Position numbers and translations under genes: made by a program
Assembly (NCBI GenBank): GCA_009772895.1
Contig: WOUP01000001.1
Location: 1-64,000, forward strand
Source: Puniceicoccaceae bacterium 5H
Lineage (GTDB): Bacteria > Verrucomicrobiota > Verrucomicrobiia > Opitutales > Oceanipulchritudinaceae
DNA: 64,000 nucleotides
Reading direction: 5' to 3'
In this document: piece by piece, positions 19,989 through 51,299 of the stretch
Layout: each line of letters opens with the position of its first letter
How positions within the stretch are numbered: the first letter of the stretch is position 1
The notes under the pieces: model-generated
Told to the model about the DNA's origin: nothing
What the model saw: the letters and a program-made list of their open reading frames with translations, nothing else
The model's database searches: none

Positions 19989-22900
19989 ATGAAACAGATA
20001 CCCCATGACTGGTGGAAAGCCATTGGCTTTTCCCTTCCCCTACTGTCTCCCCATCTGATTCTTGCGCAAGCAGAACCAGATTCGCCCAACTCCGATAAGG
20101 TCTTCGAACTCAGCCCGTTCGAGATCTCTACCTCGCGCGATATCGGCTATCAAGCCCGCGACACCCTGGCGGGCACTCGCCTGCGAACCGACGTTCGCGA
20201 CGTGGCCAACGCCATCACCGTCGTGAACCAGGAGTTCCTGAACGACACCGCAGCCACCGACGCCCAAAGCCTGCTGGTCTATACCACCGGCACCGAGGTC
20301 GGCGGCCTGCAGGGCAACTATGCCGGCGTGGGCGACGGCACCAATGCGCGCCAGACTACGACGCAGATGATCTCCCCGCAGTCCAACACCCGCGTGCGTG
20401 GGCTGGCGGAAGCCGACAACGTGCGTGGCTTTTTCCTCACGGACATCCCGTGGGACAGCTACAATACATCCCGTGTCGACATCCAGCGCGGGGCCAACTC
20501 CATGCTGTTCGGCATCGGCAGCCCGGCCGGGATCATCAACGCCAACCTGAAGGAACCGCTGCTGGGCAAGAACTTCGGCCAGGCCGAATACCGCTATGGC
20601 AGCCACGACAGCCACCGTTTTGTCGGTGACTACAACGTGCAGGTACTGCCCGACGAACTCGCCGTGCGCGTCATCGGCCTCTACGACGACCAGAAATACC
20701 AGCAGGAGCCGGCTTACGAGGAAGACACGCGCTACTTCGTCACCGCCCGCTGGGAGCCGAAGTTCCTCGATACGGACAACGCGCACACGGTCTTCAAGCT
20801 GAGCTACGAAAACGGCAACATCGAGGCCAACCACCCGCGCCTGATGCCTCCCGTCGACCGGATCACGCCGTGGTTCGATCCGGCGAACGAGTCGCTCTAC
20901 CAGCAGACGTTCAATGCCTTCGACATGAACAACTCCGACTACGAGGACTACGTGGCGGCGGGCATGCCGGCTGGCTTTGGTGCGGCTCACGCCCAGTTCT
21001 CGGACAACGACAACAATACCTACCCGAATCCCAACTACTCGCCGTGGGTCAGCACGCCCTCCGGGGTCAGCCGCGCCGGGGACGTCTTCGACGGCCCGGT
21101 TATGGTCTATCCAGATCCAAGCTCGTCCCAGACGACGGGCGCGATCAATGCCCAGTTCGACAGCAGCAACCCGACACCCGACGGGGTGAGCGCCCCCTTT
21201 TCCAGCTACGGCGGCATTACCTCCTATGAGGTATATGCGCGTCTGGTCGGGTTGCCAGGTTCGTCGATTGGCGGGTACAAGGAAAAGTCGCTCACCGATC
21301 CGGACATCTTCGACTTTTACAATAACCTGCTCGACGGCCCGAACAAGCACGAGTGGATCGACTTCGACGCCTTCAACGCCAGCATCATCGAAAGCCTGTT
21401 CGACGACCGTCTCGGTTTCGAGCTGGCCTACGACATGCAAAGCATGGACCGAGGACAGGAGCATGCGATCTCGGGCAACGGCTACGCGATCTCCGTCGAC
21501 GTGCTCGACGTGTTGCCCAACGGGCAGGACAACCCCAACGTAGGCCGCCCCATGGTGTTGAGCCGGGGTGGGGCCAATCAGTCCGAGGAGCGCGACCGGG
21601 AGACCTTCCGCGCGACGGTCTTCGGTGAGGTGCGCTTCAGCGACTACTTCGACTCCGATAGCCCCATGGCACGCATCTTCGGGCGTCACCGCTTCACCGG
21701 TATGTACCAATACAACGAGGTGGAGGTCAACACGCTCACGTGGGAGCCCTTCTCGGCAACAGACACCTTCACCGCCTCGGGAGCGCCGGGGAACTCGATC
21801 TCGCACTCGCGGCGCCAGATCGGGACCTTGAGCTACCTGGGGCCGAGCATGTTGGGGATGGACTCCGCGGCAGCGGGCGATATCTCCCGCATCAAGGCCG
21901 AGCGTCAACCCGACGATTCCACCATCCTGCTTTGGGATTGGTCCACCGCCGGCAATGGCGACTATGTGGGCTGGTCGCAGGAAAGCCTGCCCATCTGGAA
22001 CGGCATGGAGCCCAACGAGCGCGATTACCTCTACACAGGTGCCCGCAAGGAGCTGGATGAAATCGAGTCGCAGGCCTTCATCTGGCAGGGCTTTCTTTTT
22101 GATGAAAACGTGGTGCCCACGCTCGGCTGGCGCAAGGACAAGGACAAGTTCTACAACTCCGGCAACCCGCGCTCCATCCCGGACATCAATGCGGGCCTTG
22201 ACCTGAGCGATCCCAACTGGGTGCGCCCCGACGATCCCACCAACTCCGAGAGCGGCGATTCGCTCACCTGGGGGGTGGTGGTGCATACGCCGGACTTCAT
22301 CGACGAAAAGCTGCCGTATGGCCTCGAATTCAGTGTCTACTACGGCGAATCGGAGAACTTCCAGCCGGCCGCCGGGCGCGTCGACATTTTCGCCGATCCG
22401 GTGGCGTCTCCCCAGGGCGAAACGACGGAATACGGCCTGACCGTTTCGGCTCTGGAGAACCGTATCAACCTCAAGGTTAACTGGTACGAAACGAAGGTCA
22501 GCAACGCCACACTGTCCGGGGCGATCCCCAACAATTACCTGATCGGTGCGGGCGAGGCCTGGGCCTACATGTTCGCCACTCAGGCCAAATATGCCTACGA
22601 GAACAACACCGCGGTCGGCAGCTATACCACGGACTATGCGCCGGACGATCCGGATGTATTCATGCCCTACCAGCCGCGCGCGGGCCAGACGCTCGAGCAG
22701 GCTATTGCGGAGATGCAGACCGCCGTCGACGCCTACCTTGCCAATCCGGCTCCCAAAGCGCTGGAAGATGCCTGGGGCTACGATACCGCCGCCTGGTATG
22801 GCGATGGCAGCTACGAGAGCATCGATTCATGGATCAACAGCCGCAACAGTGTGGCGGGCAATCTCGCTGTGACCGGCGATACGGAGTCGGAAGGCTACGA

Positions 22901-23540
22901 AATCGAGCTGAGCGCCCAGATTCTCGACAACTGGAACGTGATGCTCAACGTCTCCAAGACTTCCGCGACGCGTCTGAACCTGGGCAGCACCTATGCGGCC
23001 TGGATCGAAGAACGTTGGGACTTCTATCAAACCGAGGCGGGCAACGTGCGCTTCTGGGAAGACGGCAAGGTGTCCAATGAGACCTTGCGCTCGAAGTTTC
23101 AGGCCGAGGTCTACGGCAACTACCAGCTGTATCGCCAACTGCAGGGCTCCGACGTGCCCGAACTGCGGCCCTGGCGCTTCAACCTGGTGACCAACTACCG
23201 CTTTCGCGAGGGCTTCATGGAGGGCGTCAACATCGGGGGCGGCTGGCGTTGGCAGGATGAAGTCACGCTCGGCTATCCCACGATCGAGGACGAAGACGGC
23301 GACTACATGTTTGACGTCGACAACCCTTACAAGGGTGACGCCGAGTCGGATCTGGACCTCTGGATCGGTTATGAGCGCGATCTGACGCACGGCATCGGCT
23401 GGAGCATCCAACTCAACGTGCGCAACGCCTTCGCCGACGACGAGCTGATCCCCGTGAGCGTGCAGACCGATGGCAGCCCCGCCGTTTACCGGATCAAGGA
23501 AGGCACGACCTTCTACCTCACCAACAGCTTCACCTTCTAG
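19989..23540 (+). CDS. TonB-dependent outer-membrane receptor
   Basis: The 1183-residue protein has a signal peptide ending near LILAQA, a TonB-box-like segment (VFELSPFEIS) at about residues 38-47, a plug domain from about 60 to 190 (DVANAITVVNQEFL, then RVDIQRGANSMLFGIGSPAGIIN) and a long beta-barrel ending in Phe. It would bring a large ligand, probably an oligosaccharide, across the outer membrane using TonB energy. It is longer than most siderophore receptors, as is usual for the sugar-related receptors of Opitutae. The next gene encodes a secreted triple esterase, which suggests an acetylated pectic ligand; this is inference. Confidence 0.93.
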   Translation: MKQIPHDWWKAIGFSLPLLSPHLILAQAEPDSPNSDKVFELSPFEISTSRDIGYQARDTLAGTRLRTDVRDVANAITVVNQEFLNDTAATDAQSLLVYTTGTEVGGLQGNYAGVGDGTNARQTTTQMISPQSNTRVRGLAEADNVRGFFLTDIPWDSYNTSRVDIQRGANSMLFGIGSPAGIINANLKEPLLGKNFGQAEYRYGSHDSHRFVGDYNVQVLPDELAVRVIGLYDDQKYQQEPAYEEDTRYFVTARWEPKFLDTDNAHTVFKLSYENGNIEANHPRLMPPVDRITPWFDPANESLYQQTFNAFDMNNSDYEDYVAAGMPAGFGAAHAQFSDNDNNTYPNPNYSPWVSTPSGVSRAGDVFDGPVMVYPDPSSSQTTGAINAQFDSSNPTPDGVSAPFSSYGGITSYEVYARLVGLPGSSIGGYKEKSLTDPDIFDFYNNLLDGPNKHEWIDFDAFNASIIESLFDDRLGFELAYDMQSMDRGQEHAISGNGYAISVDVLDVLPNGQDNPNVGRPMVLSRGGANQSEERDRETFRATVFGEVRFSDYFDSDSPMARIFGRHRFTGMYQYNEVEVNTLTWEPFSATDTFTASGAPGNSISHSRRQIGTLSYLGPSMLGMDSAAAGDISRIKAERQPDDSTILLWDWSTAGNGDYVGWSQESLPIWNGMEPNERDYLYTGARKELDEIESQAFIWQGFLFDENVVPTLGWRKDKDKFYNSGNPRSIPDINAGLDLSDPNWVRPDDPTNSESGDSLTWGVVVHTPDFIDEKLPYGLEFSVYYGESENFQPAAGRVDIFADPVASPQGETTEYGLTVSALENRINLKVNWYETKVSNATLSGAIPNNYLIGAGEAWAYMFATQAKYAYENNTAVGSYTTDYAPDDPDVFMPYQPRAGQTLEQAIAEMQTAVDAYLANPAPKALEDAWGYDTAAWYGDGSYESIDSWINSRNSVAGNLAVTGDTESEGYEIELSAQILDNWNVMLNVSKTSATRLNLGSTYAAWIEERWDFYQTEAGNVRFWEDGKVSNETLRSKFQAEVYGNYQLYRQLQGSDVPELRPWRFNLVTNYRFREGFMEGVNIGGGWRWQDEVTLGYPTIEDEDGDYMFDVDNPYKGDAESDLDLWIGYERDLTHGIGWSIQLNVRNAFADDELIPVSVQTDGSPAVYRIKEGTTFYLTNSFTF

Positions 23541-23613: not shown

Positions 23614-23702
23614 CGTTCGGCTTCTGACTGTAAACCCGGTGTTGGATGGACAGGCTGCGGCTTCTGCAGTGCCATAGATATCTAAACCCTCGTAGACCAG
23701 AG

Positions 23703-26516
23703 ATGATGAGATTTTTACGCACTCTATCCTGGTTGTTTTCACTCTCGGTGATCGCAGCTGGGCCTGCCATGGCGCAGGACAAACAATCGAACGAACCCCA
23801 ACCGCCCGAGCAGCCCCTGCCGCAGCTCTTTATCGCTGGCGACTCCACGGCGGCGCCCCACAACGGCAACGAGCGCATGGGCTGGGGCGTGCCCTTTTCG
23901 GACTATTTCGACCCGGAAAAGGTGGAAGTCCACAACATGGCTCGTGGCGGCCGCAGTAGCCGTACCTTCATCACCGAAGGCCATTGGGACCGAATGCTGG
24001 CCGACGTCCACCGCGGCGATGTCGTGTTGATCCAGTTCGGCCACAACGATGGCGGGGCGATCAACCGGGAACCGCCGGGCTCCGATCGCCCCTTGCGCGC
24101 TCGCGGTTCGTTGCCGGGTTTGGGCGATGAGAGCGAAGAAATCGACAACGCCGTGACCGGGCGCCATGAAGTCGTCTATACCTACGGCCATTACCTGCGC
24201 CAGATGATCAAAGACGTGCGGGAAAAGGGTGCTCAGCCGGTGCTGATGTCGCTCACCGTGCGCAACATCTGGAACGATGGCCGCCTCGAGCGCGGCGCCG
24301 GGCAATACGGCTCCTGGGCCTACGAGCTCGCCAAACAGGAGGACGTGCCCTTCGTCGATGTGACGGATATTGCGGCGGACAAGCTCGAGCCGATGGGCCC
24401 GGAGGCGATGAGCAAGCTCTATCCCGCCGACCACACGCACACCGGCCCGGAGGGGGCGCGTCTGCACGCCGAGGCGGTGGTGGCGGGTCTGAAAGGACTG
24501 CGCCCGAGCCCAATCGAAGGCTGGCTCTCCGATCAGGGTGAAGCGGTCGAGAAGCACGACATCACCTGGCTGAACCTGCCGCGCCCGGCCCGGGCCGACT
24601 TGCCCACGCTCTTTCTGATCGGCGACTCTACCGTGCGCAACGGTCGGGGTGACGGCTCCAACGGCCAATGGGGTTGGGGCGATTACGTCGACTACTGGTT
24701 CAACGAAAACAAGATCAACGTCGTCAACCGCGCGGTCGGCGGCCTCAGCAGCCGCACTTACTACACCGGCCCGTTTTGGGACAAGGTGCTGGATATGCTC
24801 CAGCCGGGTGACTACGTGATGATGCAGTTTGGCCACAACGACAACATCGCGCTCAACGATGCCGAACGCGCTCGGGGCACGATCCACGGCGTCGGCGACG
24901 AGACCGAGGAGATCGACAACATGGTGACCGGCAAGCACGAGGTGGTGCACACCTACGGCTGGTATTTGCGCCAGTTCATCGAGCAGGCGCGGGAGAAGGG
25001 TGCCACCCCGATCATGTGCTCCCTCGTGCCCCGCAAGATCTGGAACGACGAAGGCAAGATCGAGCGCAGCGAAGACAGCTATGCCGACTGGGCGGAGCAA
25101 GTCGCTCGCGATGAAGACGTGCCCTTCGTCAACCTCAACGACCTGATCGCCGACCGCTACGATGCGCTGGGCAAGAAGGCCGTGGATCCGCTCTTTGGCG
25201 ACGCGCACACCCACACCAGCGAACGCGGTGCGATCCTCAACGCCGAGTGTGTGGCGGAGGGCCTCGTCGAGCTGGACGACAACCCGCTGGCGCCCTACAT
25301 GACGGTCGACCTGACGCTAGGGCAGCCCGTGAGCTTTACCTTTGGCGACCAGAATGGCGACGCCATCGCGGTCGAGCCTTCGGATGCCTATACCTCCGAA
25401 ACCGGCTTCGGCTACGACCTCGGCACCATGCCCAACGAGGGAGAGCCCTATTTCTTCTCCGTCCGCGCCGACGACGGCAACTACCGCGTTACGATCGAGT
25501 TTGGCGCGGAGGACCAGGCTTCGGCCAATACCGTGAAGGCCGAAACCCGTCGCCTGATGGTCGAAGACGTGCAGACCGAGCCAGGCCAGTTCGTGGAGCG
25601 CTCCTTTGTCGTCAACGTGCGCGACACCCACCTCGTCCCGCCGGAAAAGTATGCGCCGGGTGGCACGGAGGTGCTGATCAACGATCGCGAAGTCGGCAAG
25701 CTGCATTGGGACGACAAGCTGACGCTGGAGCTTAACGGCGACGCCCCGCAGGTACATGCGATGACGTTCGAGGCGATGGATGTGCCGACGGTCTACCTCA
25801 TCGGGGATTCGACCGTGACTGATCAGCCATACGAGCCCGCCGCCAGCTGGGGCCAGATGCTGACCCGCTTCCTCGGCGATGGGGTCGCGGTGGCCAACCA
25901 CGCGGAGTCGGGTGAGACGATGAAGTCGTTCATCACCGGCCTGCGCCTGGCCAAAGTGCTCGAAGACATGGGGAAGGGCGATTACCTCTTCATCCAGTTC
26001 ACGCACAACGACCAGAAGGAATACTGGCCGCAGACCTACGTCGAAGCCGACACGACCTACAAGGCTTATCTGAAGGTCATGATCGAGGAAGCCCGTCGTC
26101 GTGGCGCCACGCCCGTGCTGGTCACCTCCATGCAGCGCCGCAATTTCGATGACGACGGCAAGATCGTCAGCAGTCTGGGAGACTATCCGAAGGCGATGCG
26201 CGACGTCGCCCGCGAGGAAGACGTGACGCTGATCGACCTCGAGCGTATGAGCGTGAAGTTCTATGAAGCGCTTGGGCCAGACAAGGCACCTCTGGCCTTC
26301 AACAACGAAGGCAAGGACCCGACCCACCACGACAACTATGGCGCCTATGAGCTGGCCAAGTGCGTGGCGGAGGGCATCCGCGAGTCCGACCTGCCGTTGG
26401 CCGATCACCTGCGCGACGACTTCCAAGGCTTTGACCCGAGCGAGCCCGACGACGTCGATCGCTTCGATCTTGCACCGAGCCCCTTCAGCAGCGACCTCAA
26501 GCCGCTCGGCAACTAA
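23703..26516 (+). CDS. Secreted triple SGNH esterase (CE12 / rhamnogalacturonan acetylesterase-like)
   Basis: The 937-residue protein has a signal peptide (cleavage near GPAMA) and three SGNH hydrolase domains. Domain 1 has GDST with Ser48, GHND at 113-116 and Asp243/His246 in DHTH. Domain 2 has Ser309 and HND at 378-380, but its acid motif reads D500-A-H-T-H504, so Asp is displaced by one position relative to domain 1. After a beta-sandwich insert (about 535-690), domain 3 has Ser703, HND from 768 and Asp872/His875 in DPTH. The fold and motifs suit removal of acetyl groups from pectic rhamnogalacturonan. The tandem ATGs at 23703 and 23706 fit the signal peptide; the frame opens earlier at 23646. 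Confidence 0.88.
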   Translation: MMRFLRTLSWLFSLSVIAAGPAMAQDKQSNEPQPPEQPLPQLFIAGDSTAAPHNGNERMGWGVPFSDYFDPEKVEVHNMARGGRSSRTFITEGHWDRMLADVHRGDVVLIQFGHNDGGAINREPPGSDRPLRARGSLPGLGDESEEIDNAVTGRHEVVYTYGHYLRQMIKDVREKGAQPVLMSLTVRNIWNDGRLERGAGQYGSWAYELAKQEDVPFVDVTDIAADKLEPMGPEAMSKLYPADHTHTGPEGARLHAEAVVAGLKGLRPSPIEGWLSDQGEAVEKHDITWLNLPRPARADLPTLFLIGDSTVRNGRGDGSNGQWGWGDYVDYWFNENKINVVNRAVGGLSSRTYYTGPFWDKVLDMLQPGDYVMMQFGHNDNIALNDAERARGTIHGVGDETEEIDNMVTGKHEVVHTYGWYLRQFIEQAREKGATPIMCSLVPRKIWNDEGKIERSEDSYADWAEQVARDEDVPFVNLNDLIADRYDALGKKAVDPLFGDAHTHTSERGAILNAECVAEGLVELDDNPLAPYMTVDLTLGQPVSFTFGDQNGDAIAVEPSDAYTSETGFGYDLGTMPNEGEPYFFSVRADDGNYRVTIEFGAEDQASANTVKAETRRLMVEDVQTEPGQFVERSFVVNVRDTHLVPPEKYAPGGTEVLINDREVGKLHWDDKLTLELNGDAPQVHAMTFEAMDVPTVYLIGDSTVTDQPYEPAASWGQMLTRFLGDGVAVANHAESGETMKSFITGLRLAKVLEDMGKGDYLFIQFTHNDQKEYWPQTYVEADTTYKAYLKVMIEEARRRGATPVLVTSMQRRNFDDDGKIVSSLGDYPKAMRDVAREEDVTLIDLERMSVKFYEALGPDKAPLAFNNEGKDPTHHDNYGAYELAKCVAEGIRESDLPLADHLRDDFQGFDPSEPDDVDRFDLAPSPFSSDLKPLGN

Positions 26517-26860: not shown

Positions 26861-27784
26861 TCAGCCTACCTGGCGCAGGATCGACTTCAGCGAGTTGGCC
26901 GAGGCCTGCAGGCCTTGCTCTTCCTTGGGCCAAAGCTTGATTTCGCGATGCCCGAGCACCCCCTTGCGGCCCATGATAGTCGGCACGCTGATGGAAACGT
27001 CGCGCAGGCCGTAGCAACCGCTTTGCGGCGAAGAGACCGGCAGCATGAATTGCTTGTCGAGCGCGACCGCCTGGACCACTTCGGCGATCGTCACGCCGAC
27101 GGCCCAACCGGCACCGCCCTTGCGCTTGATTACCTCGGCGCCGCTGGTCTTGGTGCGCTGGAAAATCGCGTTCTGGAAGCCCGGATTCACGCCGTCCATG
27201 CCCTGCATCGGCAGCCCGCCAATCGTGGCGGAAGACCAGATCGGCACCATGGAGTCACCGTGCTCGCCCAGGATCAGCGCTTTCACCTGATCGGCCGCAT
27301 AGCCGAGTTCATTGGCGATGAGGGAGCGGAAGCGGGCGGTATCCAACATCGTGCCCAACCCGTAGACCTGCTGCGTTGGCACATCGAGACTCGCCGCGGC
27401 GAGCTGGGTCAGAATATCCACCGGGTTGGAGACGATGAAGAAGTGGGCGCAGGGCTTGTAGCCCGCCTGCTGGATGCTCTGCAGGATGCCCTTGAAAAGG
27501 CTCACGTTGCGGTTGATCAGGTCCAGGCGGCTCTCGTCTGGCTTGCGGCGCAAACCCGCGGTGATGACAAACACATCACTGTCCTTGGCCCGCTCGTAGT
27601 CGCCGGCGTAGATGCGCTGCCCGCCGGTGGAAGAGGCGCCGTGCAGGAGGTCGAGCGCTTCACCTTCGGCCATGTCCCGATTCACGTCTGTGATCTGGAT
27701 CTCCGAAGCGATCCCGCCGCATTGAATGGCAAAGGCTGCATTGGAACCGACGCGGCCGCCGCCGCCAATAATCGTCACTTTCAT
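26861..27784 (-). CDS. NAD-dependent malate/lactate-type dehydrogenase of the microcompartment operon
   Basis: The 307-residue protein has the NAD-binding fingerprint IIGGGGRVGSNAA, Asp33 (ITDVNRD) favouring NAD, and the catalytic GEHGDS. At the residue that separates lactate (Gln) from malate (Arg) dehydrogenases it has Arg80 in AGLRRKPDESR, with Arg86 as the second substrate arginine, so the residue pattern is malate-like. In PVM microcompartment loci a gene of this family is usually called lactate dehydrogenase and is thought to recycle NADH. It is the last gene of the operon and has the best ribosome-binding site of the cluster. No encapsulation peptide is evident. Confidence 0.88.
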   Translation of the reverse strand: MKVTIIGGGGRVGSNAAFAIQCGGIASEIQITDVNRDMAEGEALDLLHGASSTGGQRIYAGDYERAKDSDVFVITAGLRRKPDESRLDLINRNVSLFKGILQSIQQAGYKPCAHFFIVSNPVDILTQLAAASLDVPTQQVYGLGTMLDTARFRSLIANELGYAADQVKALILGEHGDSMVPIWSSATIGGLPMQGMDGVNPGFQNAIFQRTKTSGAEVIKRKGGAGWAVGVTIAEVVQAVALDKQFMLPVSSPQSGCYGLRDVSISVPTIMGRKGVLGHREIKLWPKEEQGLQASANSLKSILRQVG

Positions 27785-27790
27785 CGTTCG

Positions 27791-27799
27791 TCCTCCTTA
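27791..27799 (-). promoter_or_regulatory. Strong ribosome-binding site overlapping the aldolase stop
   Basis: On the minus strand TAAGGAGGA merges the aldolase stop codon with a full Shine-Dalgarno sequence 6 bases before the dehydrogenase ATG. This couples the two genes and fixes the dehydrogenase start. Confidence 0.8.
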
Positions 27800-28909
27800 G
27801 CGTTGGTTGAGTTGTCCGAGGATCTGCTCGGTGATCATGCGCACCACGCTTTCGGCCTGTTCATCGTAGGCCGCAGGTGCCTCGGCGGGAGCGGGCGAGA
27901 TGGAGCAGGAGGCCGGAGCGCCGCCATTTGCGCTGTAAAAGCCGGGGCGGAAGTCGGAATTGTCACACAGCTCGCATTCCTTCCAGTCCGCGCGCTTGTC
28001 TTCCATGCCCAGTGACTGGCGCAAGGCGATCAGTTCGCGGGCCTGCGTGCCGGAGATGGGGGTCAACTCCTTGCCCAACTGCGAGGCCACCCAGATGGTG
28101 CGGCAGTAGGCGTCGGTGTTTTCCATCTTCCAGTAGGCATCCTCGATGTCCTTGCCCCAGCAGATGACGCCGTGGTTTTCCATCAGCACAGCCATGTTGT
28201 CGATGGCGGCTTCACCCACTGCGTCCGCGTTGGCCGGAGAGCCCGGAGTCTGGTAGGGGGCCATGCCGATCTGGCCGAGGAACACTTCGGCTTCGGGGAT
28301 CAGGCAGGACGGCGGACGCACTTTGGCCACGGCAAAAGCGGTGGCGTGAGGCGGGTGGGCGTGGCAGCAGGCCTTGGCCTTGGGCTGGCGCTTCATGATG
28401 CCCAGGTGCGTCATGCACTCGCTGGTGCGCTTCAGCTTGCCGGCCAGTTGGTTGCCATCCATGTCCACGAGGCACATGTCCTCGACGGCCATGAAGCCCT
28501 TGGAAATGAGGGTGGGGGTGCAGAGCACCAGATTGTCGCCCACGCGGACCGTGAGGTTACCGCCGTTGCCGTCGGTATAGTCGCGTTCCCACATGCGGCG
28601 ACCGATGTCGACCATGCGGCGCTTGATCGCCTCGATGGGCTCGGAATGGAAAAAGGCCTGGATCTCGGCCGGGGTCTTGGGATCGGTCCCGGCTTCCCAG
28701 CGATATTCGTAGTCAGGCACCTGCGGGGTTGGCGGGGTGCTGGGGTGGCCGTTGAGCTTCGCCGGCTTGGCCGCGCGAACGTCCGTGCCGACGCCGCGCA
28801 GCAAGTCGCGACCCGAAGGCGTAATGATGGCACCCGCCGGAATATCCGATTCACCTTTGCCCTGTGCGAGCAAAGCCTGAACCTCTTTTGCGGTATATAC
28901 TTTGGCCAT
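27797..28909 (-). CDS. Class II aldolase with microcompartment targeting segments
   Basis: The 370-residue protein has the class II aldolase/adducin core from about residue 90: zinc ligands are expected at His183 and His185 (CCHAHPPHA) and in ENHGVI, with Glu164 (TSE) as the catalytic acid. Family logic and the studied PVM microcompartments point to L-fuculose- or L-rhamnulose-1-phosphate cleavage to lactaldehyde and dihydroxyacetone phosphate. It is longer than free aldolases. A C-terminal helix (about 348-370, ESVVRMITEQILGQL) after a Pro/Ala linker is a typical encapsulation peptide; an N-terminal segment (AKEVQALLAQGK) before a second linker could be another. Its ATG overlaps the upstream shell-gene stop as TAATG. 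Confidence 0.9.
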   Translation of the reverse strand: MAKVYTAKEVQALLAQGKGESDIPAGAIITPSGRDLLRGVGTDVRAAKPAKLNGHPSTPPTPQVPDYEYRWEAGTDPKTPAEIQAFFHSEPIEAIKRRMVDIGRRMWERDYTDGNGGNLTVRVGDNLVLCTPTLISKGFMAVEDMCLVDMDGNQLAGKLKRTSECMTHLGIMKRQPKAKACCHAHPPHATAFAVAKVRPPSCLIPEAEVFLGQIGMAPYQTPGSPANADAVGEAAIDNMAVLMENHGVICWGKDIEDAYWKMENTDAYCRTIWVASQLGKELTPISGTQARELIALRQSLGMEDKRADWKECELCDNSDFRPGFYSANGGAPASCSISPAPAEAPAAYDEQAESVVRMITEQILGQLNQR

Positions 28910-29217
28910 TATTGAAGTTGATCCGGTTGTTGGTAACGAATGTGGTCCAGGATACAGGCGCAGTAGGCGTCGATCGGCATCGGGTGGCTGAAGGGGCGTG
29001 TGGCCTCTCCGCCTTCCACGACGCCGACGAGATCGCCGGTGTGGACACCCAAGTGGTCGTATGTGACCAGGCTGGATTGTGAGGAAATTCTGGTTTCGCT
29101 GGGATTGAGCAGATCATCCTTGCCCAGCGGAGACACGAGGCAGAGCCGACCCCGGCTTTGATCCGGGAAGATGGAATGGCTCAGGACGACTTCTCCGATG
29201 ACGCGGCACACTTTCAT
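28909..29217 (-). CDS. BMC-V (EutN/CcmL-type) shell vertex protein
   Basis: The 102-residue protein has the EutN/CcmL fold signature: VCRVIGEVVLSHS at the start, GRLCLVSPL, and THTGDLVGVVEGG in the middle. Pentamers of this family cap the vertices of the polyhedral shell. It is one of three BMC-V paralogues in the operon, as in known PVM loci, and the most divergent of them, with a longer C-terminus (DAYCACILDHIRY). Confidence 0.88.
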   Translation of the reverse strand: MKVCRVIGEVVLSHSIFPDQSRGRLCLVSPLGKDDLLNPSETRISSQSSLVTYDHLGVHTGDLVGVVEGGEATRPFSHPMPIDAYCACILDHIRYQQPDQLQ

Positions 29218-29222
29218 GGCGA

Positions 29223-29486
29223 TCAGGCAAAGGATTCGATGATGCCCACCACGGTGTTGCGCAAGGGCGAGTGGCGGTCGTGGTGGTATTGCTGGGCGGC
29301 AGAGCCGTCGGTGCTGACGAAGACACGGGCGCCGTGGCCGGCTCCGATCCAGTCTGCCGCGAGGAAAAAGGTGCCAGCGCCCGCCCCTTGGTCGTCGAGG
29401 TTTTCACACAGCAGCAGCCGCACCCCTTCCATGCTCGGGTGCTTGATGGTGCTGGTAGCGTGACCGACGACCTGGGCGAGCAGCAT
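29223..29486 (-). CDS. BMC-V (EutN/CcmL-type) shell vertex protein
   Basis: The 87-residue protein begins MLLAQVVGHATSTIKHPSM and ends VVGIIES, both standard for EutN/CcmL pentamers; ADWIGAGHGARVFVSTDGSA forms the central conserved loop. It sits between the aldehyde dehydrogenase and another BMC-V gene with gaps of only five bases. Confidence 0.92.
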   Translation of the reverse strand: MLLAQVVGHATSTIKHPSMEGVRLLLCENLDDQGAGAGTFFLAADWIGAGHGARVFVSTDGSAAQQYHHDRHSPLRNTVVGIIESFA

Positions 29487-29491
29487 GGCGA

Positions 29492-30943
29492 TTACCCGAC
29501 GATGTTGAGGTTGTCCACCATCACGCAGCGACGCTTGCGCGTAAACGTGGCGGGCGTGACGATGCCCTCACCGGTAGTCGTAGCGATCGTGAAGTTGAGG
29601 TAGCCTTCTCCGCCCATCCCCAAGCCGGCGAAGGAGGGCCCGTTCTTCACGAAAAGGGTGCAATTCAAGGCGCGGCCCATCGCGGTCAGGACGCCGATGT
29701 CGCGCGAGTGGCAAATGGCCGAGTGTCGGTAGTTGTGCTCCGTCTCCTTGCAGAGGGCGATGCCTTCTTCCACGTCGCGCACGCGCACGATGGGCAGCAT
29801 GGGCATCATCTGTTCCTCTTCGACGAAGGGATGGCCGGCGTCGGTCACCGCAAAGAGCAGATCCGTGCCGCTCGGGGCACTGGTCCCGGCTTCCTGAGCC
29901 AGCGTCGTCGCGTCGGCTCCGACTAGCTTGCGGTTGAGCACGGGGTGGGAGCAGCCACCGCCATCGGCCTTGTAGGTGAAGGCGACATCCGTCAGGCGCT
30001 GGAGTTGGCTGTCGTTGAGGCGCATGGCGCCCGCCCGTTCCAGCTCGCGCAGGAATTGATCGAAGACGGAATCGACGACGAAGACCTGCTTTTCGCCGAT
30101 GCAGAGCAAATTGTTGTCGTAGGAGGCCCCCGCGATGATATCGCGTGCCGCCTTGGCGAGGTCCGCGGATTGCTCGACCAGCACTGGCGGGTTGCCGGGG
30201 CCGGCGCAGATTGCGCGTTTGCCGCTGGCCATGGCCGCTTTCACCACGCCCGGGCCGCCCGTCACGCAAATCAGATCGATGCCGGAAGATTTGATCAGGG
30301 CGTCGAAGGACTCGAGAGAGGGCTCTTCGATGATGGTGATGAGGTTGCGCAGGCCCAGCTTGGCCTCGAGGGCTTCATTAAAGGCCGCCACGCCGGTGGC
30401 CGCGCACTTGGCGCCGCCCGGGTGGGCGTTCACCACCAGGCTGTTGCCTGCCGCGATCATGCTGACCGCGTTGGAGGCGATGGTCGGGATCGAGTGGGTG
30501 ACGGGGGAAATCGCGGCGACGGTGCCGAAGGGGGCTTGTTCTTCCAGCGAGATGCCGTGGTCACCGCTCATGCCGTAGGGCGAGAGCCATTCCGCGCCGG
30601 GCAGACCGGAGATGCCGTGCAGCTTCTCGATCTTGTGGTCGAGGCGGCCGACCTTGGTTTCCGCGAGCTCGAGCTTACCCCATTCTTCGGCGCGATCCGC
30701 ACACATCTGCTTGATGATCTGGATCGCCTCCTTGCGGGCGGCATAGCCGAGTCGGGTCAGTTTCTTTTGGGCCTCGTTGGCTGCTTCGATTGCCTGTTCG
30801 GCTTCAGCGAAGACGCCGGGGCGCGAAGAAGGGCGGGCGAGGATGGCGGGTCCGCCGGCAGATCCGTTGGCTGAAGTGCTGCCGTTGGCATTCATCTCCG
30901 CCAGGACCTGTTTGACGATATTCTGGATCGTGGCTGCGTCCAT
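29492..30943 (-). CDS. CoA-acylating aldehyde dehydrogenase (PduP-like)
   Basis: The 483-residue protein belongs to the PduP/EutE branch. Its N-terminal helix (MDAATIQNIVKQVLAEM) is a classic encapsulation peptide, joined to the enzyme by a Ser/Gly/Ala linker. The catalytic Cys is 281 in NNLLCIGEK; NPPVLVEQSADL and the PFGTVAAISPVTH cofactor region are present. In this operon it would oxidise lactaldehyde to lactyl-CoA with NAD inside the shell, feeding PduL. No alcohol dehydrogenase of the PduQ type is present in the window. Confidence 0.93.
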   Translation of the reverse strand: MDAATIQNIVKQVLAEMNANGSTSANGSAGGPAILARPSSRPGVFAEAEQAIEAANEAQKKLTRLGYAARKEAIQIIKQMCADRAEEWGKLELAETKVGRLDHKIEKLHGISGLPGAEWLSPYGMSGDHGISLEEQAPFGTVAAISPVTHSIPTIASNAVSMIAAGNSLVVNAHPGGAKCAATGVAAFNEALEAKLGLRNLITIIEEPSLESFDALIKSSGIDLICVTGGPGVVKAAMASGKRAICAGPGNPPVLVEQSADLAKAARDIIAGASYDNNLLCIGEKQVFVVDSVFDQFLRELERAGAMRLNDSQLQRLTDVAFTYKADGGGCSHPVLNRKLVGADATTLAQEAGTSAPSGTDLLFAVTDAGHPFVEEEQMMPMLPIVRVRDVEEGIALCKETEHNYRHSAICHSRDIGVLTAMGRALNCTLFVKNGPSFAGLGMGGEGYLNFTIATTTGEGIVTPATFTRKRRCVMVDNLNIVG

Positions 30944-30961
30944 CGAAAGTCGGGGTTACGG

Positions 30962-31288
30962 TTATTGGGAGTCGGGCTCGTCGGAGCTTTGGTAGATGCT
31001 CTGGTTGAGCACATTGACGCTGTCGACAATGCCGATGATGGCGGCGTCGACGGGCAGGGCCTTCAGGTTATCGGCCTGGCGGGCGCTACTGCCCTGGACA
31101 AAAAGCACCATTTCGTCGTGCGCCGCGCCAATGGGGTCGACCGCGACAACCGTGTTGCTGCCGGGGCGGAATTTGGAGGGATCCTTGTCGTCGACCAACA
31201 TGGGGCGCAGCAGCAAGAGGCGGTGCCCCTTCATGCTGTCGTCCTTCTTGGTGGCGACGACCTTCCCGATGACGCGTGCCAGAAACAT
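30962..31288 (-). CDS. BMC-V (EutN/CcmL-type) shell vertex protein
   Basis: The 108-residue protein starts MFLARVIGKVVATKKDDSM and contains RLLLLRPML, AVDPIGAAHDEMVLFVQGSSA and AAIIGIVDSV, all in EutN/CcmL order. A short charged tail (YQSSDEPDSQ) follows. It lies six bases after the BMC-H gene upstream. Confidence 0.93.
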   Translation of the reverse strand: MFLARVIGKVVATKKDDSMKGHRLLLLRPMLVDDKDPSKFRPGSNTVVAVDPIGAAHDEMVLFVQGSSARQADNLKALPVDAAIIGIVDSVNVLNQSIYQSSDEPDSQ

Positions 31289-31294
31289 GGCCGC

Positions 31295-31609
31295 TTATTT
31301 CTTTTGGGTGGAGGCGGCGGAGGCAGCGGGAGCTTCGGAGGGCAGGATCTTCTCGATCTGGCCTTCGGGGCGGGCGATGACGTGCGCGCTGACGACCTCA
31401 CCGACCTTGTTGGCGGCTTCCGCGCCGGCGTCGATCGCAGCCTTGACGGCGGCGACATTGCCCGTCACCGAAGCGGTCACCAAGGCGCTGCCGACGTTTT
31501 TCATCGGGCCGGTCAGGGTTACGTTGGCGGCTTTCAGCATGGCGTCGGTGCCGCTGACGAGGGCGACGAGGCCCTTGGTTTCGAGGAGTCCGATGGCTTC
31601 TTTAGACAT
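31295..31609 (-). CDS. BMC-H shell protein with C-terminal tail
   Basis: The 104-residue protein has the BMC-H core (MSKEAIGLLETKGLVALVSGTDAMLKAA in two halves, GNVAAVKAAIDAGAEAA, VVSAHVIARPEG). Hexamers of this family tile the shell facets. Unlike the two BMC-H genes nearer the promoter, it carries a Ser/Ala/Pro-rich tail of about 18 residues ending in two lysines. It sits between ackA and a BMC-V gene. Confidence 0.93.
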   Translation of the reverse strand: MSKEAIGLLETKGLVALVSGTDAMLKAANVTLTGPMKNVGSALVTASVTGNVAAVKAAIDAGAEAANKVGEVVSAHVIARPEGQIEKILPSEAPAASAASTQKK

Positions 31610-31662
31610 GGCTAATTGGGAATGAAGTGTTGCGGTAAAAGGGTTGGGGAAAGGCGGTGCGC

Positions 31663-32847
31663 CTAGGCTTGGCGCTGCAGGAAGCGATAGGTCTCGGTCG
31701 CGATGACCTGTTCTTCGTTGGCGGGGATGACGAGCACCTTCACGGCGGAGCCAGGAGCGGAGAGGTCGGCCTCCGTGCCCATGACATCGGCGTTGCGGGC
31801 CGTATCCAGTTTGAGGTTGAGGAAATTGAGGTTGCGGCAGACGGCTTCGCGCACGTCGGGGTTGAATTCGCCGATGCCGCCGGTGAAGGCGATGGCGTCA
31901 AGCCCGTCGAGGTCGAAGAGAAAGGAGCTGGCCCAGCGGCGGATTTCGTGGACCAGGAGGTCGAGTGCAGCCTGGGCATCGCCGTTGCCCGAACCTGCAG
32001 CGTCCTTCAAGTCACGGATGTCGTTGCCGACTCCAGAGACGCCGAGCAGGCCGGACTGTTTGGTCAACTGGGCCTCCACCTCGTCGAGGGAGAGCCCCAG
32101 ATGCTTCATGGCAAAGGGAATCGCCATCGCGTCGAGATCGCCCACCCGGTTGTTTTGGGGCAGGCCGCTCTGCGGGCTGAAACCCATGCTGGTGCCGATG
32201 GCGGTGCCGTTGCGAATCGCGGTGACCGAGCTGCTGCCGCCGAGGTGACAGGAGATCACGCGCAGCGGCTTGCCTTCAAAAACGGGCAGATCGCCGGCGT
32301 AGAGGTTCTGAACCCGCTCCACGATGTCCGGGCGGTCGAGCAACTGGGCAGAGCGCTCGGCCACGAACTTGTGTGAGGCCCCGTGAAAGCCGTAGCGGCG
32401 CACCCCGGCTTCATACCACGCCTTGGGCACTGCGTACCGCTTGGCGGTCGGATCTACCCACTGGTAAAAGGCCGTTTCAAAGAGGACCACCCTTTCGGCC
32501 TTGGGGGCGAGCCGCGCAAACTGGCGGATGCCGGCAGCATAAGGCGGATTGTGGGCCGGGGCGAGCGGAGCCGTGCGTTCCAGGGCGTCGAGCACCGTCT
32601 GATCGGCGTGGCGGCAACCGCTGACCTCGCCCCCCATCACGGTCTTGAAACCGACCGCATTGAGTTCCTCGAGGTTGGCGATGTGCCCCTGCTCGATCAG
32701 CTCCCGCAGGCTGTGCTCGATCACCTCCCCGTGGTCTTCCACCCGCTCATACTTGCCCTTGGCCACGGGCTGGAAACCATCCGGCCCGGCGGAAAAGAGG
32801 GTGTATTTGTAGGAGGTGGAACCCAGGTTGGCGACGAGGATCTTCAT
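31663..32847 (-). CDS. ackA: Acetate/propionate-type kinase of the microcompartment operon
   Basis: The 394-residue protein starts MKILVANLGSTSYKY and has GFHGASHKFVAERS, HLGGSSSVTAI and FTGGIGEF, the motifs of acetate kinases. Here the expected substrate is lactyl-phosphate made by PduL, giving lactate and ATP; this follows from the operon, not from a residue I can point to. The chemistry and length are those of AckA. No encapsulation peptide is evident. Confidence 0.93.
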   Translation of the reverse strand: MKILVANLGSTSYKYTLFSAGPDGFQPVAKGKYERVEDHGEVIEHSLRELIEQGHIANLEELNAVGFKTVMGGEVSGCRHADQTVLDALERTAPLAPAHNPPYAAGIRQFARLAPKAERVVLFETAFYQWVDPTAKRYAVPKAWYEAGVRRYGFHGASHKFVAERSAQLLDRPDIVERVQNLYAGDLPVFEGKPLRVISCHLGGSSSVTAIRNGTAIGTSMGFSPQSGLPQNNRVGDLDAMAIPFAMKHLGLSLDEVEAQLTKQSGLLGVSGVGNDIRDLKDAAGSGNGDAQAALDLLVHEIRRWASSFLFDLDGLDAIAFTGGIGEFNPDVREAVCRNLNFLNLKLDTARNADVMGTEADLSAPGSAVKVLVIPANEEQVIATETYRFLQRQA

Positions 32848-32866
32848 GCGGGAAGCGGCAAACAGG

Positions 32867-33145
32867 TTAGGCGCGGACGAAGGGCCCGAGCTTGCCCAGG
32901 TCTTCGTGGGGGCGAGCGATCACCTGTACGGCGACGACTTCACCGATACGGGAGGCGGCGTCGGCCGCGGCATCCACGCCAGCCTTCACACTGGCGACAT
33001 CGCCGGAGAAGTAGGCGGAGACGAGACCGCTGCCGGCCTTTTCCCAACCGAGCATGGAGACATCGGCGGCTTTCAGCGCGGCGTCGCAGGCTTCAAAAAG
33101 GGTTACGAAACCTTTGGTTTCGATCATTCCGAGCGCTTTGTTCAT
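32867..33145 (-). CDS. BMC-H shell protein
   Basis: The 92-residue protein has the BMC-H core (MNKALGMIETKGFVTLFEACD, GDVASVKAGVDAAADAA, VQVIARPHEDL). It carries a Trp and Glu (LGWEKAGSG) before the pore-side loop, SAYFSGD, whereas its neighbour has VQIGGG and VVVTGD, so the two hexamers probably have different pores. Confidence 0.94.
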   Translation of the reverse strand: MNKALGMIETKGFVTLFEACDAALKAADVSMLGWEKAGSGLVSAYFSGDVASVKAGVDAAADAASRIGEVVAVQVIARPHEDLGKLGPFVRA

Positions 33146-33188
33146 GGTCGCAAAAAAGTTGAGGATAAAGAATTCGGGTGAGACAGGC

Positions 33189-33458
33189 CTAGAGCTTCAG
33201 TTGCTTGAGCAGCTCGGGGTGGGGGCGGGCGATCACGTGCGCGGCCACAAATTCGCCGACGCGTTGAGCGGCATCCTGACCGGCGTCCACGGCGGCCTTG
33301 ACGCTGCCGACATCACCGGTGACGACGACGGTAATGAAGCCGCCGCCGATCTGGACGTTCTGGGCGAGGTTGACACCGGCGGCCTTCGCCATGGCGTCAG
33401 CGGCTTCGACGCTGCCCACGAAGCCCTTGGTTTCGATCAATCCGATTGATTCGTTCAT
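33189..33458 (-). CDS. BMC-H shell protein
   Basis: The 89-residue protein begins MNESIGLIETKGFVGSVEAAD and ends VIARPHPELLKQL, a minimal BMC-H domain with no tail. Position just after pduL and ahead of the second BMC-H gene matches the usual paired shell genes of PVM loci. Confidence 0.95.
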   Translation of the reverse strand: MNESIGLIETKGFVGSVEAADAMAKAAGVNLAQNVQIGGGFITVVVTGDVGSVKAAVDAGQDAAQRVGEFVAAHVIARPHPELLKQLKL

Positions 33459-33504
33459 GGTTTTTCTCAGTAAGGGTGGTTAAAGGGATAGGGTTGCGGA
33501 TGAG

Positions 33505-34185
33505 CTATTTGATCAGCTCGCAAAGGGTGTCGGGGCCGAGGCCGCAGGCGTTGCCTTCGTCGGTGTCGACGTGCACCTCCAGCTTGAAGCTCGGGTCTAC
33601 GCGGACGAGCATCTGGTCGAAGGTGGTGGCGCAGGGGCCGTGGACCTTCAGGCGCATGTAATCCTTGTGCTTCACGCCATAGTACTCCGCATCGGCGGGA
33701 GACATGTGCACGTGAATTGCGGCGCGGATCACTCCCTCGTCCATGCGGAAGAAGCCTTTGGGGCCCATCAGCATGCAGCCGGGTGTGCCGGCGATGTCAC
33801 CCGAAAGGCGGACGGGGATGTCGAAGCCGAGCGCGCGGGCATCGGTAAAGGCCAATTCCACCTGGTTCAGCGTGCGGCAGGGGCCGAGGATGCGCAGGTT
33901 GGAAATCACCCGGCTGCGCGGGCCGATCAACGTCACCGTCTCGGCGGCCGCGTACTGGCCTTCCTGGTAGAGCCACTTGTGCGGCGTCAATTGGTGGCCG
34001 GGGCCGAAAAGGGCTTCAACGGCTTCCTGCGTCAGGTGGCAGTGCCGGGCCGACACATTGACGACCAGAGGACTCGGGCCTTGGGCCGAACGGGGCAGGG
34101 GAAGGTTGAGCCGGCTGTAGACCGCGCGGCGGACCATGTGTTCGATCGAGGCGCGGGGCGGTAGCGGTTGGGTTGAAGAAGGCAT
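33505..34185 (-). CDS. pduL: Phosphotransacylase PduL with encapsulation peptide
   Basis: The 226-residue enzyme exchanges CoA and phosphate on acyl groups, here probably lactyl-CoA to lactyl-phosphate, returning CoA inside the compartment. The two PduL domains are seen: VNVSARHCHLT with the metal-binding histidines, GPRSRVISNLRILGP, and later HVHMSPADAEYYGV and KLEVHVDTDEGNA. An N-terminal helix (ASIEHMVRRAVYSRL) looks like an encapsulation peptide. It is the first gene of the operon. Confidence 0.94.
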   Translation of the reverse strand: MPSSTQPLPPRASIEHMVRRAVYSRLNLPLPRSAQGPSPLVVNVSARHCHLTQEAVEALFGPGHQLTPHKWLYQEGQYAAAETVTLIGPRSRVISNLRILGPCRTLNQVELAFTDARALGFDIPVRLSGDIAGTPGCMLMGPKGFFRMDEGVIRAAIHVHMSPADAEYYGVKHKDYMRLKVHGPCATTFDQMLVRVDPSFKLEVHVDTDEGNACGLGPDTLCELIK

Positions 34186-41658: not shown

Positions 41659-44600
41659 CTACAGCCGATCCTCGATTTGGCCCTCGCTGTCCAGCACGAG
41701 ATTCCGCAAGGTATCCTGCATGGCTGGCGAGGGCTTCTTCCATAAGCCACGTTCGATCGCTTCCAGCATACGCTCGCTGATGTCCTTCAGTGCCCAGGGG
41801 TTGTGCTGCTCGAGGAACTGGCGGTTCTCCTCGTTCAGGAGGTAGGCGTTCACCACGTCCTCATAGACGAAGTCCTCGACCGTGCGCGTGGTGCAGTCAA
41901 AGGCGAAGAGATAGTCGACGGTCGCGGCCATCTCGAACGCGCCCTTATAGCCGTGTCGCTGCACCCCTTGGATCCATTTGGGGTTGACCACCCGTGAGCG
42001 GTGGACCTTCAGGATCTCTTCCTTCAGCGTCTTGATGCGCGGGTTTTCCGGGCGCGCATGATCGCCGAAGTAGACCTGCTTTTGCTGCCCGGAGAAGACC
42101 TCCGCGGCGTTGGTCATGCCCCCGTGAAACTGGTAGTAGTCATCCGAATCGAGGATGTCGTGCTCGCGGTTGTCCTGATTCTGCAGGATGATCTGGGCGT
42201 CCTTTAAGCGCTGCTTGAAGCTCTCCGGGGCCAAAACACAGCGTTGGCGATCGCGGTAGGCATAGGCACCCCAGGTCAGATAGGCCTGCGCCAGGTCCTC
42301 GCGCGTCTCCCAATTGCGGTTGGCGATCAACTCCTGCAAGCCGGCCCCATAGGAACCCGGTTTGGAGCCGAAGACGCGAAACAGGCCGCGTTCGCTGGCC
42401 TCGTCCGCATTGATGCCGCGCGCCTGCCACGCCTGACGGTCGTCGAGCCAGGCCTGCCGTAACGGGTTGTCCTCCGCCGCTTCGTCTTCTTCGGCTACCT
42501 TGCGCACGGCCGCCTGATAGAGGGAGATCACATCCGGGAAGGCATCCCGAAAGAAACCGGATATGCGCAGCGTCACATCGACCCGCGGCCGCCGGAGTTC
42601 TGCCAGTGACAGCACCTCAAAATCCACCACGCGCTGGTTGACCCCCTGCCAGATGGGCCGCACGCCCATCAGGGCAAAGGCCTGCGCAATGTCATCGCCG
42701 CCCGTGCGCATGGTCGAGGTGCCCCAGACCGAGAGCGCCAGCGTGCGGGGGTATTCACCGTTTTCCTGAATGTAGCGCTGCACCAATCGCTCGGCACTGC
42801 GCTGCCCCAGCTCCCAAGCGGCCCGGGTCGGAATTGCCCGCAGATCGACCGAATAGAAATTGCGCCCCGTCGGCAGCACATCCAGCCGTCCCCGCGAAGG
42901 TGCACCCGACGGGCCTGAGTCGATGAAGCCGCCCTCGAGGCCCTGCAGCAGCGCATCGATTTCGCCGGTCGTCGCCGCGAGGTGCGGCAGCGTCTTTGAC
43001 CGCATGGCCACAAAAACCTGGGCCAGACGCGGCTGGTCGATTGGTATGGCTCCGGTTTGGAGCAGGTGCTGCAGGGCTGCCCGCACTTGCTCTTCGAGCG
43101 CAGTGATCAGGTCGCCCGCGATGCGGCAGCCGGGATGGTCGAGCCCAAGTTCCGCCAGCGGTGTCTCCGGCGCTACGTTCAGCGGATCGAAGTCGAGCTC
43201 TAGATCTCGGGCCAGCGCCTGCGTCACCCCTTCGGCACCACCCGTTGGCAGGCGGTGCAAGGCGATCAGCGTATCGAGCAGGCAATCACCCTCCGGCACC
43301 TGTCCCAGGATGTGCAGGCCGTCGCGAATTTGCGCTTCCTTGATCTCACATAAGTACCCGTCCAGCCGGTACAACACCTCGTCCAGATTATCCGACTCCA
43401 GCCCTAGATCGACCCGTAGGTGGGTGGTGTCGAGCAGCTGGAGGATCTGGCCGCGCAGGAGTTCGGCCCGGTCGCGGTCGAGGTCGCAGGCCTCGTAATA
43501 TTCGTCGATTTTCTGCTCCAGCTCGATCAGCGGGCCATAGGTTTCGGCCCGGGTGAGCGGCGGCATCAGGTGGTCGACGATCACCGTGTGGGTGCGGCGC
43601 TTGGCCTGCGTGCCTTCGCCCGGGTCGTTGACGATAAAGGGATAGAAGTGCGGGATCGCATCCAGCAGCGCCGCCGGGAAGCAGCTGCGCTCGTGCAGCG
43701 CCAGGCTCTTGCCGGGCAGCCACTCGAGATTGCCGTGTTTGCCGACGTGCACCACCGCATCCGCCGCAAACGCGCTCGCGAGGTAGGCGTAGAAGGCCAG
43801 GTAATTCCACGGTGGCGGCAAGTCGGGCGAGTGGTAGGCTTCTGCCGGATTGAGGTTGAACCCGCGCGAGGGCTGGATCGCGACCCAGCAGTGGCCGAGA
43901 CGGATTCCGGATAGTCGCCATTGCCCCTGCTGGAAATACGGATCTTCTTCCGGCGAGCCCCACTTGTCTTCGATCCGCTGACGGAGCGCGGGGGAAAGCC
44001 GTTCCAGCCACTGACGAAACACGGCGTCCTCCAGCTGCACCTCACAATCCTTGAGCGGTAGCGCGTCCTGGTCGTTCGTCACCATCGCGGTCAGCCGCTG
44101 CATCAGCGCATCCGAGTCCGCCGGCAAATCGTTCGGCAAGGCGTAGCCCGCGGCGCGCAGGGTATGCAGAATGCGCACAACGCTTTCCGGGGTGTCGAGG
44201 CCCACGCCGTTGGCGAGGCGGCCATCCTTGTTCGGGTAGTTGGGCAGGATCAGGGCAACGCGTTTCTGACCGGCGGGCTTGTGGCGCAGGCGTGCCCAGG
44301 CGCTGGCCAGTCGTGCGGTAAAGGCGATGCCTTCGGGGTGCGGTTCATAGCGCGTCAGATCGCTTTCCGTTGCCTCGTCGCGTGTAAACGGCGCCTTGAA
44401 GCAAAAGGGGCGGGTGATGATGCGCCCGTCTACCTCCGGCAGCGCGACGCTCATCGCGATGTCGGTCGGCGGCAGGCCAAAGTCGCCGGCCTGCCAGGTC
44501 TCGCGCGTGCAGGAGCTCACCATCGCCTGCAAAACGGGCACCCGTAGTCGGGCAAAACCGGACTGGGCGGCGCCGTCGTCGATGGACTTGGTCGAAAAGC

Positions 44601-49965: not shown

Positions 49966-51299
49966 ACGCAGGCCTCCTTTCGGCCAAAGAGCCGGCGAAA
50001 CAAGAGGGCGGCGGTGGGGAAATACAAATGCAGGTAGGACGCGTGCAGGTGCGGCAGTCCATAGCCCTCGGTGCGCTCCGTCTGCCGGGAAGGCTTGCTG
50101 ACCGTCCAGAGATTTGCGTGGGTTTCGGCGGCATCCCAGTCGCTGTAGTGGAACTCGTGGGCACGGAACGAGGCGCCGTCTTCCGGTCGGTGACACCAGG
50201 AATAGCCGAAGTTCTTCAGCCGGTCGCCCATATGCACGCGCCCCGGGACGACGCCGGTCATTGCATGGAATTCGCCGCCCTGTTGGACGATGCCCTCGGT
50301 CAAATACATGAAGCCGCCGCACTCGGCGTAGCAGGGTAGGCCCTGTTGGATTTCCGTCGCGAGAGCCTCCCGCATCGAGCGGTTGGCTTCCAGAGCCTCA
50401 GCATAGACTTCCGGGAAGCCGCCGCCCAGGATCACGCCGTCGACTCCACCCGGCAAGCGAGCGTCGTGTAGCGGAGAAAAGGGCATGAGTTCGAAGCCCC
50501 AGCCTTTCAGGGCGGTCAGGTTCTCTTCGTAGTAAAAGTGAAACGCTTCGTCCTGCGCGATGGCCAGCCGTCGACCTTCCCCAAAGGGCTCCACGCTTTC
50601 GGCCCAGGGGGTGGCGTCCGCCACAGACCCCGGGCGAAATAGCTGCAGGATGGCATCGACGTCGAGGTGTGCTTCCGCGGCGGCGGCAAACGCCGGGCGT
50701 TCGCGGAGTTGAAATTCCTGCCGCGCCTGCAGCCCCAGGTGACGCTCCGGCCACGCAAACTGAGGCAGCTTGGGCACGGCACCCACGATGGGCACCGCCA
50801 AGTCGTGCAGTGCGCGCCGCAAATAGTCCGCATGAGACGCGCCCGAAACCTGGTTCAGGATGATGCCGGCAACCTGGCCATCCGCTTCCGCCAGAAAGCC
50901 GTTGATCGTGGCCCGCAGCGAGCGCCCCTGTTTGGCCGCCGGCACGACCAGCAGCACCGGCCAACCCAGCAACTGGGCCAGGTGCAGCGTGCTGCCTTCG
51001 CTGGTGTAGGGACTTACGCCGTCGATCAGGCCCATCACGCCCTCCACCACGCCGCGCGCGGTAGAGGTGTGGCGCTGGGCGGTGGCACGGATGCCGTCTT
51101 TGCCCATCAGCCAGAAATCGAGGTTGTAGGCAGGCTTGCCCGCAAAGTGAGCCGAGTAGGCGGTATCGATGTAGTCCGGGCCGGCCTTGAAGGGCTGCAG
51201 CGCGATCCCGCGCTCGCTCAAGGCGCAGAGCAGCAGCGCATTCAGCAGCGTTTTGCCGCTACTGCTTTGGGTGCCAGCGATGATGATACCGTCGTGCAT
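49962..51299 (-). CDS. cobB: Cobyrinic/hydrogenobyrinic acid a,c-diamide synthase
   Basis: The 445-residue protein amidates corrin side chains a and c using glutamine and ATP. It has the dethiobiotin-synthetase-like ATPase start ([12 protein letters not shown]), [11 protein letters not shown], and a C-terminal glutamine amidotransferase domain with Cys in [10 protein letters not shown] and the GGGFPE loop. Both CobB (aerobic) and CbiA (anaerobic) carry this architecture; the neighbouring cobN favours CobB. It is the first gene of the leftward operon. Confidence 0.94.
49973..49980 (-). promoter_or_regulatory. Shine-Dalgarno for the ChlD-like gene (CTG start)
   Basis: On the minus strand AAAGGAGG lies in the last codons of cobB, 7 bases before CTG at 49965-49963. 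The spacing is ideal and the homology to chelatase subunits begins about nine residues later, so this site supports a non-standard CTG start. Confidence 0.6.

Follow-up and report, generated by a model that had tools for sequence, protein, structure and literature searches.

A secreted three-domain CE12-like esterase whose second SGNH domain carries a displaced, probably functional block V aspartate

Architecture and genomic setting of the esterase

The window analysed here is a stretch of 64,000 nucleotides from Puniceicoccaceae bacterium 5H, and the gene under study lies in an open frame of its forward strand (23646-26516) with a likely ATG start at 23706 (MRFLRTLSWLF...), giving a protein of 936 aa with a signal-peptide-like N terminus. 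The residue numbers used in the original prediction are higher by one, because the start was there taken as 23703. Behind its signal peptide the protein carries a tandem pair of CE12-like SGNH domains; a beta domain comes next, and the third SGNH domain forms the C terminus. The likely signal peptide (MRFLRTLSWLFSLSVIAAGPAMA, followed by Q; 23706-23777, forward strand, as are all the modules below) was recognised by eye from its basic start, its hydrophobic core and the AMA before the likely cleavage site. The Pfam family Lipase_GDSL_2 is matched three times and, together with this N terminus, bears out the original prediction of three SGNH domains in one secreted protein. Domain 1 (aa 35-280; 23808-24545) and domain 3 (aa 691-936; 25776-26513) are canonical; the former was defined by Pfam, motifs and homologues, the latter by Pfam, motifs and a match to the CE12 structure 1DEO (Z 22.9). 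Domain 2 (aa 295-530; 24588-25295), the acid-shifted one, was delimited by Pfam, an AF2 model, comparison with 1DEO and block V statistics, and is followed by a beta-sandwich domain (aa 531-690; 25296-25775) similar to the jelly roll at the N terminus of YxiM. Identity is 47% between domains 1 and 2 and about 27-33% between either of them and domain 3.

The SGNH superfamily residues Ser (block I), Gly (II), Asn (III) and His (V) are present in all three domains. In particular, GDST is found at 45, 306 and 700, with S47, S308 and S702 as nucleophiles, and HND follows 111, 375 and 765, the oxyanion Asn of domain 3 lying in THND rather than GHND. Block V reads A-D242-H-T-H245 in domain 1 and K-D871-P-T-H874 in domain 3, both of the DxxH type, so the motif positions agree with the complete Ser, Asn and DxxH sets originally assigned to these two domains. 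Domain 2 reads F-G-D499-A500-H-T-H503 (GAC GCG CAC ACC CAC, 25200-25214, for residues 499-503), that is DxxxH, with an Asp four residues before the catalytic His (position -4) and none at -3. The loss of DxxH spacing in a D-A-H-T-H motif had been correctly noticed, residues 500-504 of that numbering being 499-503 here. The three positions on which the following argument turns are Asp499 (25200-25202), the proposed triad acid, singled out by a column scan for acids; Ala500 (25203-25205), at the site of the usual catalytic Asp, which in relatives is occupied by A, P, K, G, R or E; and His503 (25212-25214), the catalytic base.

A sequencing error or private mutation in domain 2 was ruled out, since dozens of homologues carry the same motif and the three-domain protein of Pelagicoccus sp. 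SDUM812002 (locus L031) also has FGDAHTHT. Separately, block I of domain 2 is followed by an inserted Gly-rich GDG stretch (aa 313-325, GRGDGSNGQWGWG). This insertion is conserved in domain-2 types, is missing from domain 1 and is modelled with low confidence (pLDDT <50 at model residues 21-23).

The alpha/beta/alpha SGNH fold was found in the AF2 models of domain 2 and of the beta domain with domain 3, and by sequence only for domain 1. The model of domain 2 (pLDDT 89.8; lower in the block V loop, with a block mean of 79) superposes on 1DEO over its whole length (Z 30.8, rmsd 2.0, 227 residues, 30% identity). The model of aa 529-936 matches 2O14 from the beta domain through the SGNH domain (model 12-371, chain 14-367, Z 24.1) with an rmsd of 8.3, so that the two domains are placed differently, or unreliably, relative to each other; 2O14 is also matched by aa 596-893 in phmmer.

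Directly upstream, a TonB-dependent receptor (19989-23540, forward strand; Pfam Plug) ends 165 bases before the esterase start, and the two genes are probably co-expressed. Downstream, on the reverse strand (26861-34185), genes for a lactate/malate dehydrogenase, a class II aldolase, a CoA-acylating-type aldehyde dehydrogenase, an acetate kinase and a PduL phosphotransacylase make up a set typical of a sugar-aldehyde bacterial microcompartment. Such microcompartments of Planctomycetes and Verrucomicrobia degrade fucose and rhamnose, and the genes fit the use of rhamnose or fucose beside a pectin esterase. Elsewhere in the genome there are five matches to PL11 (RG-I lyase domain), three to GH88/105 and three to GH28, and this gene content makes rhamnogalacturonan I the likely substrate. 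Farther along the window lie a large CobN/Mg-chelatase-like protein (41659-45396, reverse strand) and a ChlI/VWA protein (48064-50322).

The three modules are seldom found in one polypeptide. Among 109 loci with a domain-2 homologue, the order domain 1-2-3 occurs in two and domain 3-1-2 in one (L051), in keeping with the remark that triple CE12-like proteins are unusual. The window protein and that of Pelagicoccus L031, which share about 69% identity over 899 residues, both have the order 1-2-3. Elsewhere the modules are divided between two genes, often adjacent, one for domains 1-2 and one for the beta domain with domain 3; at L035, L037, L056, L078 and L082 the gene for domain 3 immediately precedes that for domains 1-2 in the same orientation, and L034 is a domain 3-2 fusion. 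Fusion in both orders and this adjacency suggest that the three modules act on one substrate. The window and Pelagicoccus loci have no flanking genes in common within the 3.5 kb or less examined per side, and the only phage-borne homologues are distant ones. Two homologues of the domain 1-2 type, L002 (G007:C33:14102-15586) and L007 (G123:C1:2782282-2783760), contain an in-frame TGA inside the matched stretch, which may reflect degradation, a frameshift or an assembly error.

Conservation and history of the displaced aspartate

Homologues collected from genome contigs and from the phylum were split into domains and aligned, yielding 208 domains in which positions -3 and -4 of block V are coupled: Asp stands at -4 in 66 of the 67 domains with a non-acidic -3, in 38 of 47 with Glu at -3 and in one of 94 with Asp at -3, counts that are not independent events since the shift may have arisen once. 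The homologue alignment called for by the original prediction thus finds the shift conserved. The 66 DxxxH domains are non-identical and come from Verrucomicrobiota, Acidobacteriota and Pseudomonadota; the single exception, with a non-acidic -3 and no Asp at -4, is L122 (GAGPHTS). In the 137 domain-2-type domains the residue at -3 is E in 46, A in 35, D in 24, P in 23, K in 5, G in 2 and R in 2, and Ser, Gly, Asn and His are invariant (137/137). Domain-1-type and domain-3-type domains have Asp at -3, with Glu once, and all 46 domain-1 homologues have Asp.

When all columns were scanned for acids, that of D499 was the only one with an acid in 100% of the 66 DxxxH and 38 DExxH domains and in just 3% of 70 DxxH domains. 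Other replacement acids within domain 2 were rejected by the same scan, D494 and D326 separating the sets just partly. Just before the shifted Asp, DxxxH domains invariably have A, G or S where DxxH domains mostly have Pro, and the loop length is unchanged, because the block V Phe stays at -6. Block V of the acid-shifted subfamily reads [FY]-[AGS]-D-X-X-[TL]-H, against D-X-X-H.

In a tree of 196 domains, built with the block V columns left out, 112 acid-shifted domains fall on one side of a branch with a weak support of 61. An acid at -4 or -3 is retained in 111 of these 112. Within the group, 17 changes between Glu and a non-acidic residue at -3 were counted, 7-9 of them forced by well-supported branches. 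A swap of Asp with Ala therefore misdescribes the case: -3 is free of constraint, may hold A, P, E, K, G or R, and has changed back and forth repeatedly on the tree. Inside the group, L128/L131 and L135 have lost one residue between Asp and His (F-A-D-N-L-H), which brings the same Asp back into DxxH spacing; outside it, L138 (HADDWTH) has Asp at both -3 and -4. An independent-pairs test of the coupling found three pairs on supported branches, one of them informative, and has almost no power, since the shift itself may have arisen once. A route from DxxH through DExxH to DxxxH is a plausible reading of these motifs.

Two further arrangements were observed among the homologues. In tandem esterases of Massilia/Duganella (L052, L060, L061, L065-L068, L072 and others) the canonical Asp is in neither domain, DExxH being the usual form of the first and DARTH that of the second. 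In L122 the first SGNH ORF (1287-2244) is a shifted-group domain with no acid at -3 or -4 (VPGAGPHTS), adjoining a second, intact DxxxH gene; this domain may be a copy that is truly inactive or relies on a dyad.

Is domain 2 a working esterase?

We consider it quite probable that the gene encodes a secreted three-module CE12-like acetylesterase, acting most likely on rhamnogalacturonan I/pectin, in which domain 2 is active with Asp499 as the acid that orients His503. In the proposed mechanism Ser308 would be the nucleophile, the block II Gly (Gly346 in the alignment) and Asn378 would form the oxyanion hole and His503 would act as the base, oriented and polarised by Asp499 from four residues upstream rather than three. 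The acid would have moved one residue towards the N terminus while the Phe-to-His loop of block V kept its length, and Ala, Gly or Ser in place of the usual Pro before the Asp probably lets it reach the His; a contact between D499 and H503 is what we infer from this arrangement. The "different geometry" offered by the original prediction as one option agrees with these data, the Asp at -4 being a subfamily hallmark whose invariance coincides precisely with the absence of the usual acid.

The other option, an inactive domain serving in binding, is disfavoured. That domain 2 is catalytically dead and binds the polymer or holds domains 1 and 3 together would agree with the absence of the usual catalytic Asp, with the canonical neighbour domains in the same protein and with the -3 Ala itself, which equals the product of the D354A substitution that replaces the -3 Asp and abolishes the activity of the CE12 enzyme EstSJ (PMC10189120). 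However, the other catalytic residues are all invariant across three phyla and the -4 Asp is strictly conserved; a loss of the -3 acid with these residues kept implies compensation, as EstSJ D354A is inactive. Moreover, 13 proteins have DxxxH in their only SGNH domain, most with an export signal by eye (the start of L041 being unresolved), and, if dead, they would be non-enzymes keeping a complete Ser-Gly-Asn-His set. We therefore regard a dead domain as improbable.

Also unlikely, though somewhat less so, is an active domain 2 that relies on a Ser-His dyad or on a triad completed by water. Asp499 would then hold either a water or the loop, and His503 would be contacted by that water or by a carbonyl of the main chain. 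Such arrangements have been reported in SGNH esterases (CE2 dyads, NanS, CE20; PMC9487903, PMC12313940, PMC9063846), and a one-residue shift alters the geometry, so direct contact is not guaranteed. A dyad, however, needs no invariant Asp at a new site, whereas here loss of the -3 acid goes with an invariant Asp at -4, and the deletion reverting to DxxH retains the same Asp. Very improbable, in our judgement, is a purely structural -4 Asp, capping a loop or helix and matching the loss of the -3 acid by shared ancestry: the tree is compatible with one origin and the pairs test is nearly powerless, but the -3 acid was lost repeatedly in the group while the other catalytic residues were not, and hardly any member lacks an acid at both -4 and -3.

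Domain 2 thus represents a genuine and conserved variation on a known kind of enzyme, and on its sequence features it is probably a working active-site variant rather than a broken copy. We lean towards a wider reading, in which the catalytic acid of a widespread CE12-like branch has shifted by one residue via DExxH intermediates to give an undescribed SGNH DxxxH triad, and in which tandems keep DxxH together with DxxxH, perhaps for different acetyl positions of the same polymer. The block V DxxH is the textbook signature for calling SGNH esterases active or dead; if the reading is true, that signature would wrongly dismiss the domains of a conserved DxxxH subfamily spread over at least three phyla, and DD, DE, DA, DP and the reversion by deletion would be natural intermediates of an acid migrating along a loop. 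One polypeptide here holds a directly testable DxxH/DxxxH pair, and for pectin breakdown a division of labour between tandem deacetylases is suggested.

Comparison with known systems

Tandem and fused carbohydrate esterases are already known in general; the open literature searched held nothing relevant on double CE12 domains. Among the profile matches and the open literature, no characterised SGNH/GDSL enzyme and no solved structure, including those of CE12, has a DxxxH block V; subscription papers lay mostly outside this search, so an earlier description is possible. The similarity of the protein to CE12 is clear (the A1 profile matches 1DEO with E 4e-42, the nearest non-CE12 matches being about 4e-4, and the beta domain with domain 3 matches YxiM). 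The Asp three residues before the His that marks CE12 is found in domains 1 and 3; domain 2 is named a CE12-like acid-shifted variant and not a plain member because its Asp is not at -3. The protein does not qualify as a PaeY (NF041897): its SGNH domains reach 45-55 bits apiece, each on a portion of that model, whose curated whole-protein threshold is 1000 bits.

A block V Asp that is missing or displaced likens domain 2 to the CE2 enzymes CtCE2 and BpEst2A; these, however, work with a Ser-His dyad and use main-chain carbonyls, with no replacement Asp (PMC9487903). CE20 enzymes have a DxH block V, Gln for Asn and, in some members, an ancillary domain (PMC12313940). Fl8CE20_II is, like domain 2, an SGNH esterase with its block V Asp off the classical spacing, but its Asp is at -2 and its ancillary domain helps to build the site (PMC12313940), and the recognised kinship ends with the SGNH fold; domain 2 contains no inserted domain, keeps the Asn of HND and reads DxxxH, and so does not belong to the CE20 esterases with a water-mediated triad.

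The closest parallels lie within CE12. YxiM/EstSJ of Bacillus subtilis (2O14; EstSJ and YxiM are 95% identical, PMC10189120) has the beta and SGNH domains of the C-terminal half and the DxxH of domain 3, but only one SGNH domain, with a canonical acid that is essential in EstSJ (PMC10189120). The rhamnogalacturonan acetylesterase of Aspergillus aculeatus (1DEO; D192N mutant, 3C1U) shares with domain 2 the fold, the GDS, Gly and HND motifs, the HTHTS block and the Phe-to-His loop length of block V; it differs in being a single-domain enzyme and in reading F-P-I-D-H-T-H, with its Asp at -3, where domain 2 reads F-G-D-A-H-T-H, with its Asp at -4.
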